Positions 22,238-29,117 of a DNA stretch of 29,237 nt are shown here, in pieces; position 1 is the stretch's first letter, and every line of letters begins with the position of its first letter. Source of the stretch: a virus. The DNA lies in the IMG/VR virus record IMGVR_UViG_3300024517_000085, positions 1-29,237 of that record; one strand, written 5' to 3'. A model generated the notes under the pieces. The model was not told the DNA's origin and did not search any database. It worked only from the letters and a program-made list of their open reading frames with translations. Made by a program: the position numbers and the translations under genes.

Positions 22238-22575
22238 CGCCGGGCCTCCCTGATCTCGATGGCCGATAGCTCGATCTCTCGCCCGCACGATCCGCACCGC
22301 CTCAGCCACTGGGCCGCCTTCAGCCGCCAGACCCTCGCGCAGTGGATGCACTTGGCCAGCCGCGAGCGCAGCAGGTAGGGGTTGGTGGGGTGCCTGAGCC
22401 TGTATTCGGGGATCCCGACCTTGTGCCTCCAGTAGCAGACAGATTGCGGGTTCACGTTCAGCCACTCGGCCACCTGCTGATCGCTCGCCATCGGGAAGGC
22501 CAACAGGACGTCGCCCAGGGCCCACCCTATAGAGGGGTAGGTGTGGCCCTTCCAGTGGACGCGCATGGGGCTCAC
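22234..22575 (-). CDS. HTH and zinc-finger protein
   Basis: A 113-residue protein, GTGA-coupled to both neighbours (a second start, ATG 22566, is possible). Residues 31-55 (SDQQVAEWLNVNPQSVCYWR) look like a helix-turn-helix of the terminase-small-subunit or resolvase type. A four-Cys zinc site follows: C76-x2-C79 and C94-x2-C97 (KCIHC; RCGSC). DNA binding is likely. It lies between the DpdA-like gene and the methyltransferase, so it may help target DNA modification or regulate it; that is inference. Confidence 0.6.
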   Translation of the reverse strand: MSPMRVHWKGHTYPSIGWALGDVLLAFPMASDQQVAEWLNVNPQSVCYWRHKVGIPEYRLRHPTNPYLLRSRLAKCIHCARVWRLKAAQWLRRCGSCGREIELSAIEIREARR

Positions 22576-23186
22576 GGCAGCGCGCCAAAGAGATGCTCCT
22601 GCCGTCTGCCAAGGTCCAGCCTCCGCAGTGTCTTACCAAAGCGCGTAACGCTGGTGCCGTCGAAGCTGTGCGCCCCGGCATCGTTGCACAGGTTGATCCG
22701 CTTCACACTGTTGACCCGCGCAACGTGGAAGTACGCGCCCCGCTCCTGCGCGAGCTTGCCCCAATGGCGCATCGTCTCCAGCTTCCACTCTGTTGTGCCG
22801 CCCAGGAAGATCCCGATCTCAGGCCCGATCAGGTGTCGAACGTCGCCGGGATCGATCCCGTCCTGCACCGCAAGCAGCGGCGGGGCAACGGCAGACACCC
22901 GATCAAGCCAGGACAGCGAGAAACGAAGCGACGACAGCCCACCCGCCACAATATCGGGCAGGGTGATCCAGTCTGCCCCGCGCCCCATCTTCGCCAACGC
23001 GCACTCAAAGGCTCCCACGTCGAACGGTTCGCCCCGCTGGTAGCAACTCCACGCCCCGTTGTCTAGAGCGTAGGGGAACCCCTCAGAGCGCAGCACAGCG
23101 CCCGCAACCACAAGCACCCGCCAGCCTGCCTCACGCATGGCGGCGAGTGTTGTGCGCGTTCCTGTTCTGCTGGCGTAGGCTTGCAT
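22572..23186 (-). CDS. dpdA: DpdA-like DNA transglycosylase (TGT superfamily)
   Basis: A 204-residue protein of the tRNA-guanine transglycosylase superfamily, DpdA type. DpdA swaps guanine in DNA for preQ0. Start ATG 23186 overlaps the cupin stop (TGATG); the longer open frame upstream is shadow sequence. Key motifs in order: YALDNGAW with D42 (the nucleophile position), TLPDIV with D78, LLAVQDG at 105-110, FLGGTTEWK at 128-135, HVARVNSVKRI at 154-164, and SFDGTSVTRFG at 174-184. It is shorter than typical DpdA proteins because the tRNA-binding domain of TGTs is lacking, as expected for a DNA substrate. QueC lies two genes upstream in the same operon, which strongly supports the role. Confidence 0.8.
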   Translation of the reverse strand: MQAYASRTGTRTTLAAMREAGWRVLVVAGAVLRSEGFPYALDNGAWSCYQRGEPFDVGAFECALAKMGRGADWITLPDIVAGGLSSLRFSLSWLDRVSAVAPPLLAVQDGIDPGDVRHLIGPEIGIFLGGTTEWKLETMRHWGKLAQERGAYFHVARVNSVKRINLCNDAGAHSFDGTSVTRFGKTLRRLDLGRRQEHLFGALP

Positions 23187-23527
23187 CACGCGCCAAGCTC
23201 CCGCCAAGACCAGCCGCGCCGCTGCGGCCCGCGGATGCAGAGAGTGAGGCACCCTCTTGGCCCCACGCGCAGGCTGTGCACTTCGGACGCTCTGCGGAAG
23301 GACGCGCGGCCGAGGGCCCGCCAACAGGCAGCACCGGGGCGGGCCTCTGAATAGCCCCCACGCAGCACCACCGTTACGAAGTCCCATGGGTGATCGTGAC
23401 CCTGGATCTTGGCTCCGCGCGCGAAGCGGTGCAGGTACACCCCGAGCGGGCGAGAGTCGAGCAGGGCCAGCCGCTCCATCGTGGGGCTGGCCGATGATTC
23501 GCTCGGGAAGATCGGACGCCACCTCAC
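23186..23527 (-). CDS. Cupin-fold protein between queC and dpdA
   Basis: A 113-residue single-domain cupin. I chose GTG 23527, which overlaps the QueC stop (GTGA). The pattern is GVYLHRFARGAKIQGHDHPW, then DFVTVVLRGGYSEARPG and a late VHSLRVGPRGCLTLCI followed by RRGWSW. This is a known small cupin type often found in phages, with likely metal ligands in the HDHPWDF and E-VHSL motifs. Its activity is not known. Being coupled between QueC and the DpdA-like gene suggests it acts on preQ0 or on the modified base, but that is inference. Confidence 0.7.
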   Translation of the reverse strand: MRWRPIFPSESSASPTMERLALLDSRPLGVYLHRFARGAKIQGHDHPWDFVTVVLRGGYSEARPGAACWRALGRASFRRASEVHSLRVGPRGCLTLCIRGPQRRGWSWRELGA

Positions 23528-24156
23528 GGTGCTAACTCCCGGCAGCGGATCCCCGCGCGGCACTCGTCACAGACACCGCAGGGGGCTGGGATGCCCCTCG
23601 CCCTAGCCTCGCACGCGCCGCAGGTTCCGCAGGGTTCCTCGCCGCCCGCGTAGCAAGACCATGAGAGATCGAGCAGCGCGGACCCTCCGTACCTCTGCGC
23701 GAACCGATATACCCCACGCTTGTCCAGGTCGATCAGCGGGGTAATGATCTTGCAGGGTGCCAACTCTGTCCGCATCTTGTCGAAGAACTCCGGGCGGCAG
23801 TCCTCAAACACCGCCCAGTCATCGCGACAAGACCCCATCACCACCGCATCTGGCCCCGGAAACAAGGCGGCAGCTTGGCGCAACATGATCGCATTGCGAT
23901 CCGGCACCACAACGCCGGCCCCGGAGAGCTTGCCTTCAAGGTCGGTGAGCGCGGATCCCGCAATCCGACCCAGCGGCACAAACCACTTGTTGACCCCGTA
24001 GACGTTGCACAGGCGAGACATGGCGACCCGCTCCCGCCCCTCGTGGCGCTGCCCATAGGTGAAGAACACCGCATCAACTGCGCGCCCGTATTCAATAGAG
24101 GCCCAGGCTAGGCAGGCTGCGGAGTCCATGCCGCCTGATAGTAAGACCCTGATCAC
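23524..24156 (-). CDS. queC: 7-cyano-7-deazaguanine synthase QueC
   Basis: A 210-residue ATP-dependent enzyme that turns 7-carboxy-7-deazaguanine and ammonia into preQ0. Start GTG 24156 overlaps the previous stop. Hallmarks: RVLLSGGMDSAACLAWA (PP-loop, residues 3-19), DAVFFTYGQRHEGRERVA, VVPDRNAIMLRQAAA, VMGSCRDDWAVFEDCRPEFF, ITPLIDLDKRGVYRFA, and the zinc site WSCYAGGEEPCGTCGACEAR. After it comes an extra CGVCDECRAGIRC cluster that ordinary QueC lacks. Feeding preQ0 to the DpdA-like enzyme is the obvious use here. FolE, QueD and QueE are not in the window, so earlier steps may come from the host or another part of the genome. Confidence 0.92.
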   Translation of the reverse strand: MIRVLLSGGMDSAACLAWASIEYGRAVDAVFFTYGQRHEGRERVAMSRLCNVYGVNKWFVPLGRIAGSALTDLEGKLSGAGVVVPDRNAIMLRQAAALFPGPDAVVMGSCRDDWAVFEDCRPEFFDKMRTELAPCKIITPLIDLDKRGVYRFAQRYGGSALLDLSWSCYAGGEEPCGTCGACEARARGIPAPCGVCDECRAGIRCRELAP

Positions 24157-24446
24157 GGCTTCTCTCCGCACTCCCAGCACCCGCCCGGATGGTGGTTGGT
24201 GGCGGCGCAGTGCGGGCAAGTCCAAGGCTCGCCCTCGCCACGGCAGATCGCGATCGTCTCCTTCATTGCCTCCGCGCAGTCCTGGCAGATCACCGAGACG
24301 ATCAGCACGGGCGGATCCATCTGCGCGCGAAGCTCGCACGGCACGGCGACGTTGACCCCGATCCGGTAGCTGCACCAATCGCAGACGCCGTCGCCCGCCT
24401 CGACTGCGTGATCGGCTGCCGCCTGCATCGACTCAAACGACCTCAC
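24153..24446 (-). CDS. Multi-zinc-ribbon protein
   Basis: A 97-residue protein, GTGA-coupled to RusA and to QueC. It has three clear CxxC pairs plus more Cys: C22/C25 (CDWC), C54/C57 (CQDC), C77/C80 (CPHC) and C90/C93 (CWEC), with single Cys at 37 and 68. Two zinc ribbons are likely. It may bind nucleic acid or a partner. No named family is recognised. Confidence 0.6.
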   Translation of the reverse strand: MRSFESMQAAADHAVEAGDGVCDWCSYRIGVNVAVPCELRAQMDPPVLIVSVICQDCAEAMKETIAICRGEGEPWTCPHCAATNHHPGGCWECGEKP

Positions 24447-27342: not shown

Positions 27343-27624
27343 ATGCCTGACAACGACAAGACACTGACACGGGGCAGCGTGCTGCTCAAACAATGGATCA
27401 AGGTGAAGGCCGGCAACTCTCAGCGCGCCTTGGCCGCCGACCTGGGTATCACTTCGGCTTCAATCAGCAACATGGTCACAGGCCGCAACGCGCCATCCAT
27501 GGGGCTGGCTGTGCTGATACAGGCCAGAACCCGGGGCGCGGTTCGCGTCTCCGATTGGCTGGACCCGGTGGCTTCGGCCAAGGTCGAGCAGATGACGCGG
27601 CTGGTGGGTCGGATCGATGGCTAG
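27343..27624 (+). CDS. Cro/CI-like HTH regulator
   Basis: A 93-residue DNA-binding protein with GGGGG upstream of its ATG. Residues ~18-60 form an XRE-type helix-turn-helix: LKQWIKVKAGNSQRALAADL, GITSASISNMVTGRNAPSMG. There is no protease or dimer domain as in CI, so it is Cro-like in size. It faces the early operon across the inverted repeat, and is expected to bind it. It overlaps the initiator gene by eight bases. Confidence 0.85.
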   Translation: MPDNDKTLTRGSVLLKQWIKVKAGNSQRALAADLGITSASISNMVTGRNAPSMGLAVLIQARTRGAVRVSDWLDPVASAKVEQMTRLVGRIDG

Positions 27625-28570
27625 AAAGCGCACCCTATCTCCTGAGTTCTTCCTGCACGAGGGGCTGGCGGGATGCTCTCCGCACGCGCGGCTGCTGTTC
27701 GCGTCTCTGTGGTGTCAGGCAGACCGGGAGGGCCGCCTGCTGTGGCTGCCCATGCAGGTCTACGGATCGACCTTCCCATGGGAGCCGGGCCTTGACGTCG
27801 GCGCGATGGCGGCCGAGCTTGAGGCTGTGGGTTGCCTGCGCCGCTATCGGCACAACGGCAAGCTATACGCCGACCTGCCCGGCTTCCTGGCGTGGCAGAG
27901 GCCCCACAGGAACGAGCCAGACAGCCGGCATCCGGGCGCTGCCCCGATAATGGCTGACCAAGAGTCGGACAATGGTCGGCCTGACGTCGGACAATGGTCG
28001 GCCGTCGCCCGCCTCTTATCCTCTGATCCTCTATCCTCTGATCCTCTATCCTCTGATCCTCTAGAGAACAAGATGTCGGCTGCGCCGCCAGCCGTGGAGG
28101 CTGCGCCACCACCAGCCATTCCACCTTCAGAGCCTCGCGAGTCTCAGAGAACAACCCAGGCACAACACCTTGACCAGCACTGGCGGCGCCTCAGCGGTGT
28201 CCGTCCCAAGCCCAAGTCTGCAGCCAGTAAGAAGCGGCTGGCCCGGTGGTCGCGGTATCTGAAGGATCACACGGTCGCGGAGCTTGAGCTGCTCACCGAA
28301 TACATCGCCGATTCGCCCTGGTGGCGCGGCGAGAACAACACCAGCAGCGACCTGCTGAAGGCTGGCCCCGGCAAGTGGCTCAACGACCCCGAGAAGGCCG
28401 AGGCCAGGATCAACGAAGCAAGGGCTTGGGAGGATGGCGGCAGGCAGTCACAGCCCAAGCCAGCCGCCACCAACCGCGCGCCATGGGAACGAACAGTTGA
28501 GGAGGTGGCGGCTGAGGCCGACGCCATCCTCCGAGCGAAGGGAATAGATCTCGATGCGATCACTATCTGA
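27617..28570 (+). CDS. O-like replication initiator
   Basis: A 317-residue protein. The N-terminal ~105 residues are a winged-helix DNA-binding domain typical of phage replisome organisers: MARKRTLSPEFFLHEGLAGC, ARLLFASLWCQADREGRLLW, ELEAVGCLRRYRHNGKLYAD, FLAWQRPHRNEP. A linker follows whose DNA holds repeats (separate entries), giving LSSDPLSSDPLSSDPL in the protein. Residues ~185-265 form the C-terminal helical domain (LARWSRYLKDH; SPWWRGENNTSSDLLKAGPG; KWLNDPEKAEARI) that would recruit the loader or helicase. As in lambda O, the origin appears to lie within the gene. Confidence 0.8.
   Translation: MARKRTLSPEFFLHEGLAGCSPHARLLFASLWCQADREGRLLWLPMQVYGSTFPWEPGLDVGAMAAELEAVGCLRRYRHNGKLYADLPGFLAWQRPHRNEPDSRHPGAAPIMADQESDNGRPDVGQWSAVARLLSSDPLSSDPLSSDPLENKMSAAPPAVEAAPPPAIPPSEPRESQRTTQAQHLDQHWRRLSGVRPKPKSAASKKRLARWSRYLKDHTVAELELLTEYIADSPWWRGENNTSSDLLKAGPGKWLNDPEKAEARINEARAWEDGGRQSQPKPAATNRAPWERTVEEVAAEADAILRAKGIDLDAITI
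27942..28003. repeat. Iteron array 1, 22-bp period
   Basis: Two exact 18-bp copies of GTCGGACAATGGTCGGCC at 27964-27981 and 27986-28003. A degenerate copy lies one period earlier at 27942-27959 (11 of 18 bases the same). The 22-bp period is not a multiple of three, so the two exact copies are read in different frames (SDNGRP and GQWSA). The conservation is therefore at DNA level. Likely binding sites for the initiator. Confidence 0.7.
28017..28061. repeat. Iteron array 2, three 15-bp tandem repeats
   Basis: Three exact tandem copies of TATCCTCTGATCCTC at 28017-28031, 28032-28046 and 28047-28061. Each contains ATCCTCT twice, so six heptamers are strung together. The array starts 13 bases after array 1, within the initiator gene. 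Its pyrimidine-rich strand bias resembles unwinding or loading segments of phage origins. Confidence 0.75.
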
Positions 28571-29117
28571 CGTTGTATCAGCCAACCTCCAACTCATCCG
28601 CTCGCGTACCCCGCCAGCGTCTGAGGCCGCGCTGTGGGTCGATGAGTTCAACCGCAAGATCGGCAGCATCGATCCTGAGCGCCTGCAGTCAGCATTCGAC
28701 GCCGCCCGCGAGGAGGCGGCAGGCTCAGGACGTTACCGCCCGCTCCACTTCGACGACATTCTCCGGGCCTTTCGGCGCACGCTCAGCACCGACCGGCGCG
28801 AGCAGGACGCACCGCCCAGCGTGCCCGACTGCCCGCGCAAGTGCGGCGATGGCAAAGTGATCGTGCTGGATGAGAAGGGCTACGAAGTCGTCGCCCTGTG
28901 CACCTGCGCCGCCGGCCAGTGGTGGGGATCTCTGCCTGCCTGGAGCCAGTACCCCACCGCCCTAGAGCTACTGCGCCGGCCCGGCTACACCGAGCCCGAG
29001 GCTGCTGGGGTGTCCCAAGCTCAGGCCGATTGGCTGCTGAACCGCACCGGTCAGGTCGGCGTCAAGGTGGCTATGGAGGAGTTCACGGCTGAGATGGATC
29101 GGCGGGCTGGGCGCTAG
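28554..29117 (+). CDS. P-like replication protein (helicase loader candidate)
   Basis: A 187-residue protein overlapping the end of the initiator gene by 17 bases. The first ~75 residues (SEAALWVDEFNRKIGSIDPE; LQSAFDAAREEAAGSGRYRP; LHFDDILRAFRR) resemble the helical start of phage replication partners. A zinc site C93/C97 with C116/C118 (CPRKC; CTC) follows. Pairing with an O-like gene suggests a lambda P-type helicase loader. The inference is based on order and size; no ATPase motif is visible. Confidence 0.55.
   Translation: MRSLSDVVSANLQLIRSRTPPASEAALWVDEFNRKIGSIDPERLQSAFDAAREEAAGSGRYRPLHFDDILRAFRRTLSTDRREQDAPPSVPDCPRKCGDGKVIVLDEKGYEVVALCTCAAGQWWGSLPAWSQYPTALELLRRPGYTEPEAAGVSQAQADWLLNRTGQVGVKVAMEEFTAEMDRRAGR

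Follow-up and report, generated by a model that had tools for sequence, protein, structure and literature searches.

A putative replication origin of 11-bp iterons and a presumed unwinding element within the initiator gene of a phage

The stretch of DNA analysed here (the window) is a 29-kb linear virus record (IMGVR_UViG_3300024517_000085, 29,237 nucleotides), and it contains a replication initiator gene (27617-28570, + strand) encoding a protein of 317 amino acids. In a profile search the protein matched the PHROG annotation 'replication initiation protein' over residues 1-243 of 317 with an E-value of 1.2e-32 (PHROG 16167, 12556, 1408 and 2149), and no match was found in Pfam or NCBIfam. 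According to the AlphaFold2 model, residues 1-110 (27617-27946, + strand) form a winged-helix (wHTH) DNA-binding domain, which ends with WQRPHRNE..S..P and has a pLDDT above 90 over most of its length. It is followed by a linker of residues 111-174 (27947-28138, + strand), predicted to be disordered (pLDDT about 46-66), the coding segment of which holds the putative origin. The rest of the protein (28139-28567, + strand) is a helical region by the secondary structure of the same model and is presumed to contact the replisome; among relatives the C-termini differ, and some of them match primosomal, DnaD-like or O-like PHROGs. Two repeat arrays, described below, are both located in the DNA coding for residues 109-149.

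A gene for an HTH_3/YdaS-like regulator (27343-27624) is located just upstream of the initiator gene, and an overlapping gene (28554-29117, + strand), encoding a protein of 187 amino acids without a family match in Pfam, PHROG or NCBIfam, is located downstream. In many relatives the position of this downstream gene is taken by DnaB or by a helicase loader of the DnaC-like or P-like kind, as seen from the synteny of F10, yong1, IME307, HK639, JBD44 and Pitbull. Two loci whose products are 66% (L016) and 98% (L017) identical to the 187-residue protein provided sequence only from downstream of the putative origin and were kept outside the origin comparison. Elsewhere in the window, the protein encoded at 23524-24378 (- strand) matched QueC (Pfam, E-value of 8.4e-37), and its neighbour at 22572-23522 encodes a phrog_15826 protein; these two may belong to a 7-deazaguanine DNA-modification pathway.

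An earlier note on this DNA described an 18-bp repeat with a 22-bp period, in two exact copies and one degenerate copy, and this was confirmed: GTCGGACAATGGTCGGCC occurs exactly at 27964-27981 and 27986-28003, with a step of 22 bp, and a degenerate copy (11 of 18 positions matching) at 27942-27959. The third, degenerate 22-bp copy is opened by the degenerate outer iteron unit CCCCGATAATG (27942-27952, + strand), which was read directly. Array I (27953-28007, + strand) consists of five 11-bp iteron units of the GTCGGACAATG type arranged as 22-bp doublets, in the order GCTGACCAAGA / GTCGGACAATG / GTCGGCCTGAC / GTCGGACAATG / GTCGGCCGTCG from 27953, and TRF reported a period of 11 at 27964-28001. 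When as many as 3 mismatches in 16 bp were allowed, no further copy of the iteron turned up in the window besides the two exact ones. The longest exact repeat of the iteron zone is 18 bp, whereas 2000 synonymous-codon shuffles of the gene gave at most 14 bp (0/2000 reached 18). The copies of the 18-bp repeat are read in different frames (SDNGRPD and VGQWSAV), because 22 bp is not a whole number of codons. The frames and the shuffles together bear out the view that array I is conserved as DNA and not as a protein repeat. Most likely the repeats are built from a unit of 11 bp, with two iterons in each 22-bp repeat; this reading rests on the family described below, since the strict 11-bp lag in the window alone is not significant, being equalled by 11 of 30 synonymous shuffles. 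The 18-bp repeat at 22-bp steps is thus present as described, but 11-bp iterons appear to be its better description in the light of the lag-11 signal of the family.

Array II (28012-28063, + strand) comprises three 15-bp repeats made of the 7/8-bp units TCTATCC and TCTGATCC, of the GGAT type on the bottom strand, and is presumed to be a DNA unwinding element. All three tandem repeats reported to follow the first array were found to be exact, TATCCTCTGATCCTC occurring three times without error at 28017-28061. They are in frame and encode LSSDP three times, with perfect codon identity (30/30 at a lag of 15; 2000 synonymous shuffles gave a mean of 20.3 and a maximum of 28). GC makes up 50% of array II and 65% of the window. 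Of all 50-mers in the 29 kb, the one at 28015, which coincides with array II, is the least stable.

Two single scans of IMG/VR gave 377 and 524 relatives of the initiator. Relatives are found in phages of Pseudomonas, Escherichia, Vibrio, Bordetella, Myxococcus, Streptomyces, Mycobacterium, Gordonia and other hosts, as well as in plasmids, mostly non-mobilizable, two of which have phage-type gene content. These two (L304 of Klebsiella, 69.9 kb, and L305 of E. coli, 39.4 kb) carry the initiator with iterons and array II, and the initiator module may also serve plasmid maintenance in them.

Alignment on the N-terminal domain included 297 loci, of which 166 remained below 80% identity and 90 below 65%. 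For the latter, non-redundant set, self-matching at each lag in the 100 nt after the domain was compared with synonymous-codon shuffles. The largest excess was at lag 11 (self-match of 0.374, +0.066 over the shuffles, t = 10.1), and lag 22 gave a further peak (t = 6.2); the lag-11 signal occupies 20-110 nt after the domain. The C-terminal part and a first control in the early wHTH were flat, without a lag-11 signal; a second wHTH control had a weak excess at lags 11/22 (t about 5), perhaps owing in part to L035 and L050. In these two loci (L050 on a Pedobacter contig), iteron-like GCACCATGC units also occur inside the wing-coding DNA, as an insertion. Taken gene by gene, lag 11 exceeded all 30 shuffles in 41 of the 90 relatives. 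The register is seen in the iteron cores too: 54 of 86 spacings between ACGCGT cores are exactly 11 and 9 are 10, and 32 of 38 spacings between cores of the ID-P class are multiples of 11. Neither array is clear in a few relatives (e.g. Mx8, L009, L174 and L214). The initiator linker of L009 and L174 has an HNH nuclease domain inserted at the origin zone, and that of the Myxococcus phage Mx8 (L053) a T5orf172/MUG113, GIY-YIG-like nuclease domain, the arrays being hard to see in all three; a homing-type insertion at the putative origin is possible in these cases.

The iteron core varies with the residues that follow a conserved Q (Q94 in the window) at the end of the DNA-binding domain. At least two ACGCGT sites were found in 35 of 39 genes with the motif QxIN[NPHG][RK]E and in 2 of 127 others (Fisher 5e-29), although p-values for this association are too optimistic, as class members share descent; when the IN-RE members are limited to those with less than 60% mutual identity, only 6 remain, and 3 of these have at least two ACGCGT sites. 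Of 33 genes that lie outside the IN-RE class yet share at least 48% identity with a member of it, 31 are without ACGCGT; the other two have INSRE and LNPRE, which nearly match the motif. Other classes have cores of their own: CACTGA/CAGTGA-type in the QKINRP class (7/7), TCGCGA or CGCGAG in the ID-P class, GAAGCA in the ISGKE class and GCACC in the PH..E class. A phage-type Klebsiella plasmid fetched after the classes had been set combines HQKINRPS with CTCAGTGA-type units at 11-bp steps. The initiator of the window belongs to the QRPHRNE group, with whose other members it shares GWCRACCAAAG-like iterons, as judged by eye. The pairing of iteron sequences with the motif that follows the conserved Q may be regarded as a testable recognition code.

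In the family, array II is formed by tandem 5-9-bp units, which are mostly of the GGAA type on the coding strand (GGAAGGGAAAGG, GGAACAGG) and of the TTCC type in the PH classes (CTGATTCC), the TCTGATCC/TCTATCC units of the window being of the TTCC kind. In 66 of the 90 relatives it exceeded every one of the 30 synonymous shuffles, and in 42 of the 45 genes that could be scored it begins after the iterons. From about 0.13, the absolute purine skew climbs to a peak of 0.35 at 90-110 nt, and the top strand is purine-rich at array II in 97 of 109 non-PH genes. This purine-rich strand is the coding one in nearly all non-PH classes and often the non-coding one in the PH classes. The array II zone contains the least stable 40-mer in 35 of the 90 genes, where 17% would be expected. 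Rather than being AT-rich, array II is often GC-rich (GGAAGGGAAAGG, GGGGAACA) and constrained in sequence, with GG pairs every 5-9 nt on one strand. The possibility that it follows the C-terminal domain or the helicase partner was tested and found no support: its type is shared in 77% of cases when the C-terminal cluster differs and in 16% when the DNA-binding class differs. Because the type of array II tracks the DNA-binding class, the wHTH and both arrays behave as one cassette, through function or linkage.

Synonymous positions were compared in 59 pairs of closer relatives, a test that is conditional on alignable identical residues and includes two pairs of duplicate loci. Where residues are identical, different codons are used in 43% of cases in the wHTH and 40% in the C-terminal part, compared with 19%, less than half as often, in the origin zone, and codon change in the origin zone is below that of the wHTH in 54 of the 59 pairs. 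Since synonymous changes are few here and the linker is predicted to be disordered, selection most likely acts on the DNA of the origin zone.

Taken together, the segment 27942-28063 is very probably the self-encoded replication origin of this phage, with iterons and an unwinding element in linker-coding DNA. The proposal of the earlier note that two arrays within the initiator gene make a probable origin finds its support at the level of sequence analysis: in the PHROG assignment, the recurrence of both arrays at a fixed position in the majority of the diverse relatives, the covariation of motif and iterons, the synonymous conservation and the instability of array II. The helicase loader and helicase genes directly downstream in relatives were also counted in favour of this reading; the GC skew of the window, a 29-kb linear fragment, has no usable turning point at the locus. 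According to the proposed mechanism, the N-terminal winged helix would bind the 11-bp iterons of array I, and with about one iteron per helical turn the protomers might align on one face of the DNA. The assembled initiator complex would then melt the adjacent strand-biased array II, one strand of which would probably be held via its short repeats, as the Rep proteins of RK2 and F and DnaA suggest, while the C-terminal domain and the product of the next gene might recruit the replicative helicase.

Several other explanations of the arrays were considered. Winged-helix proteins often autoregulate, and, with a regulator gene of the HTH_3/YdaS type just upstream, the arrays could be operators through which the initiator or that regulator controls transcription, replication starting elsewhere. 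This appears unlikely, as the sites are about 330 nt inside the gene, an adjoining melting-prone and strand-biased array II would be superfluous for an operator, and phage-type plasmids share the same layout. It is even harder to credit that the arrays are by-products of replication slippage, or repeats at the protein level, in an unconstrained linker: the predicted disorder of the linker and the in-frame 15-bp array would fit, but the copies of array I are in different frames, the 11-bp period is kept while the sequence changes with the DNA-binding domain, and synonymous sites are conserved. Slippage and protein-level repeats were both rejected on the basis of the frame and of the synonymous shuffles, which fail to reproduce the repeats. 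A diverged lambda O-type origin, which would place the initiator within the lambda O family proper, would account for the same gene position and for iterons followed by a strand-asymmetric region; it is very doubtful, since profile comparison by hhalign, in which lambda O and P22 gp18 each entered as a single sequence, gave a probability of 0.3%, by which homology was rejected, and since the iterons of lambda and P22 are 18 bp at 20-24-bp steps, without the 11-bp register.

A further reading is a variant of the preferred one and compatible with it. Array I would be the binding site, as above, and array II, instead of being simply a weak duplex, would be a strand-specific site of the initiator on single-stranded DNA, an entry site of primosome or primase, or a G-rich strand that folds on being displaced. 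The constrained and often GC-rich sequence, the regular GG pairs on one strand and the way in which the type follows the DNA-binding domain over the C-terminal cluster are in its favour. Physical linkage of wHTH and arrays could, however, yield an identical association, and in the window no stretch is less stable than array II. This variant is a real but somewhat less than even prospect.

If the reading of 27942-28063 as an origin is extended to the relatives, a more general proposal is that a very widespread class of phage origins is located within the initiator gene and comprises double-strand iterons, one per helical turn, with a sequence that depends on a short specificity motif at the end of the winged helix, and a strand-polar tandem array of 5-9-nt GGAW/TTCC units, read as a single strand or folded and not simply AT-rich, in an exchangeable cassette of wHTH and arrays; we hold the chances of this proposal to be evenly balanced. 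If it is true, the origin and the specificity of the initiator would be predictable from sequence for very many phages. Few phage origins have been mapped, and here the initiator, its putative binding sites and a presumed site of melting can all be read from a single gene, which belongs to a family with hundreds of IMG/VR matches and no Pfam model. The strand-polar and often non-AT-rich array II also leads to a direct question on how origins open. The location of an origin inside the initiator gene is already known for lambda O, P22 18 and RepA_N. Judging from the open-access literature searched, three features are new: the common 11-bp register of the iterons, the strand polarity of the second array and the correspondence of motif and iterons across a large phage family. 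No earlier account of 11-bp iterons within phage initiator genes came up in that search, which mostly did not extend to subscription journals. Repeats have been noted in the O-like gene of phage MD8 (PMC8508860); in mycobacterial RepA prophages the origin was suspected to lie within repA, with no repeats identified in the region (PMC7157519).

The proposed arrangement of double-stranded binding sites beside short direct repeats is shared with RK2 (TrfA), F (RepE), the DnaA-trio of oriC and ori2 of Vibrio (RctB), where the repeats of the unwinding element are recognised in single-stranded form, on one of the strands (PMC4081077, PMC10797057). The unwinding repeats of these systems are AT-rich, while the presumed ones described here are purine/pyrimidine-biased. 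To our knowledge, none of these origins lies within the linker of its initiator.

As proposed for the present case, the origin is located in the middle of the initiator gene in lambda (O, ori-lambda), P22 (gene 18) and Stx phages, direct-repeat iterons are followed there by a strand-asymmetric, melting-prone region, and the next gene encodes a helicase loader or helicase, as in the relatives described here (PMC7466680). Unlike here, lambda and P22 have 18-bp iterons at 20-24 bp and an AT-rich DUE, and no protein homology was detectable. The comparison with lambda gene O drawn in the earlier note therefore holds as an analogy, with iterons and a putative unwinding region inside the initiator gene, but not as homology.

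RepA_N plasmids (pSK41, pTZ2162) encode an initiator with an N-terminal winged helix and have origin boxes in the centre of rep; the linker encoded by ori is dispensable as protein, and the C-terminus is exchangeable and host-specific (PMC5703833). Their origin lies in the linker-coding part of rep (PMC5703833), a position that the putative origin of the window fits. The four top-ranked PDB fold matches found by VIA-align are RepA_N structures (4pql, 5kbj, 4pt7 and 4pta; Z of 7.3-7.9, rmsd of 3.5-3.9 over 98-107 residues), but by a narrow margin, other winged helices reaching 7.1. Comparison of the wHTH profile with PDB sequences gave chance matches only, with zinc fingers on top; the HQ.PH..E stretch resembles zinc-finger linkers (Aart, E-value of 1e-7), which was taken as chance, the predicted structure being a winged helix. 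The RepA_N model PF06970 had no match in the window protein or its relatives in a Pfam search. Unlike RepA_N, the family described here occurs in phages of Proteobacteria, Actinobacteria and others, and has 11-bp iterons and a GGAA/TTCC array. With sequence homology to lambda O or RepA_N below detection, the likeness of this putative origin to both would be one of working mode.
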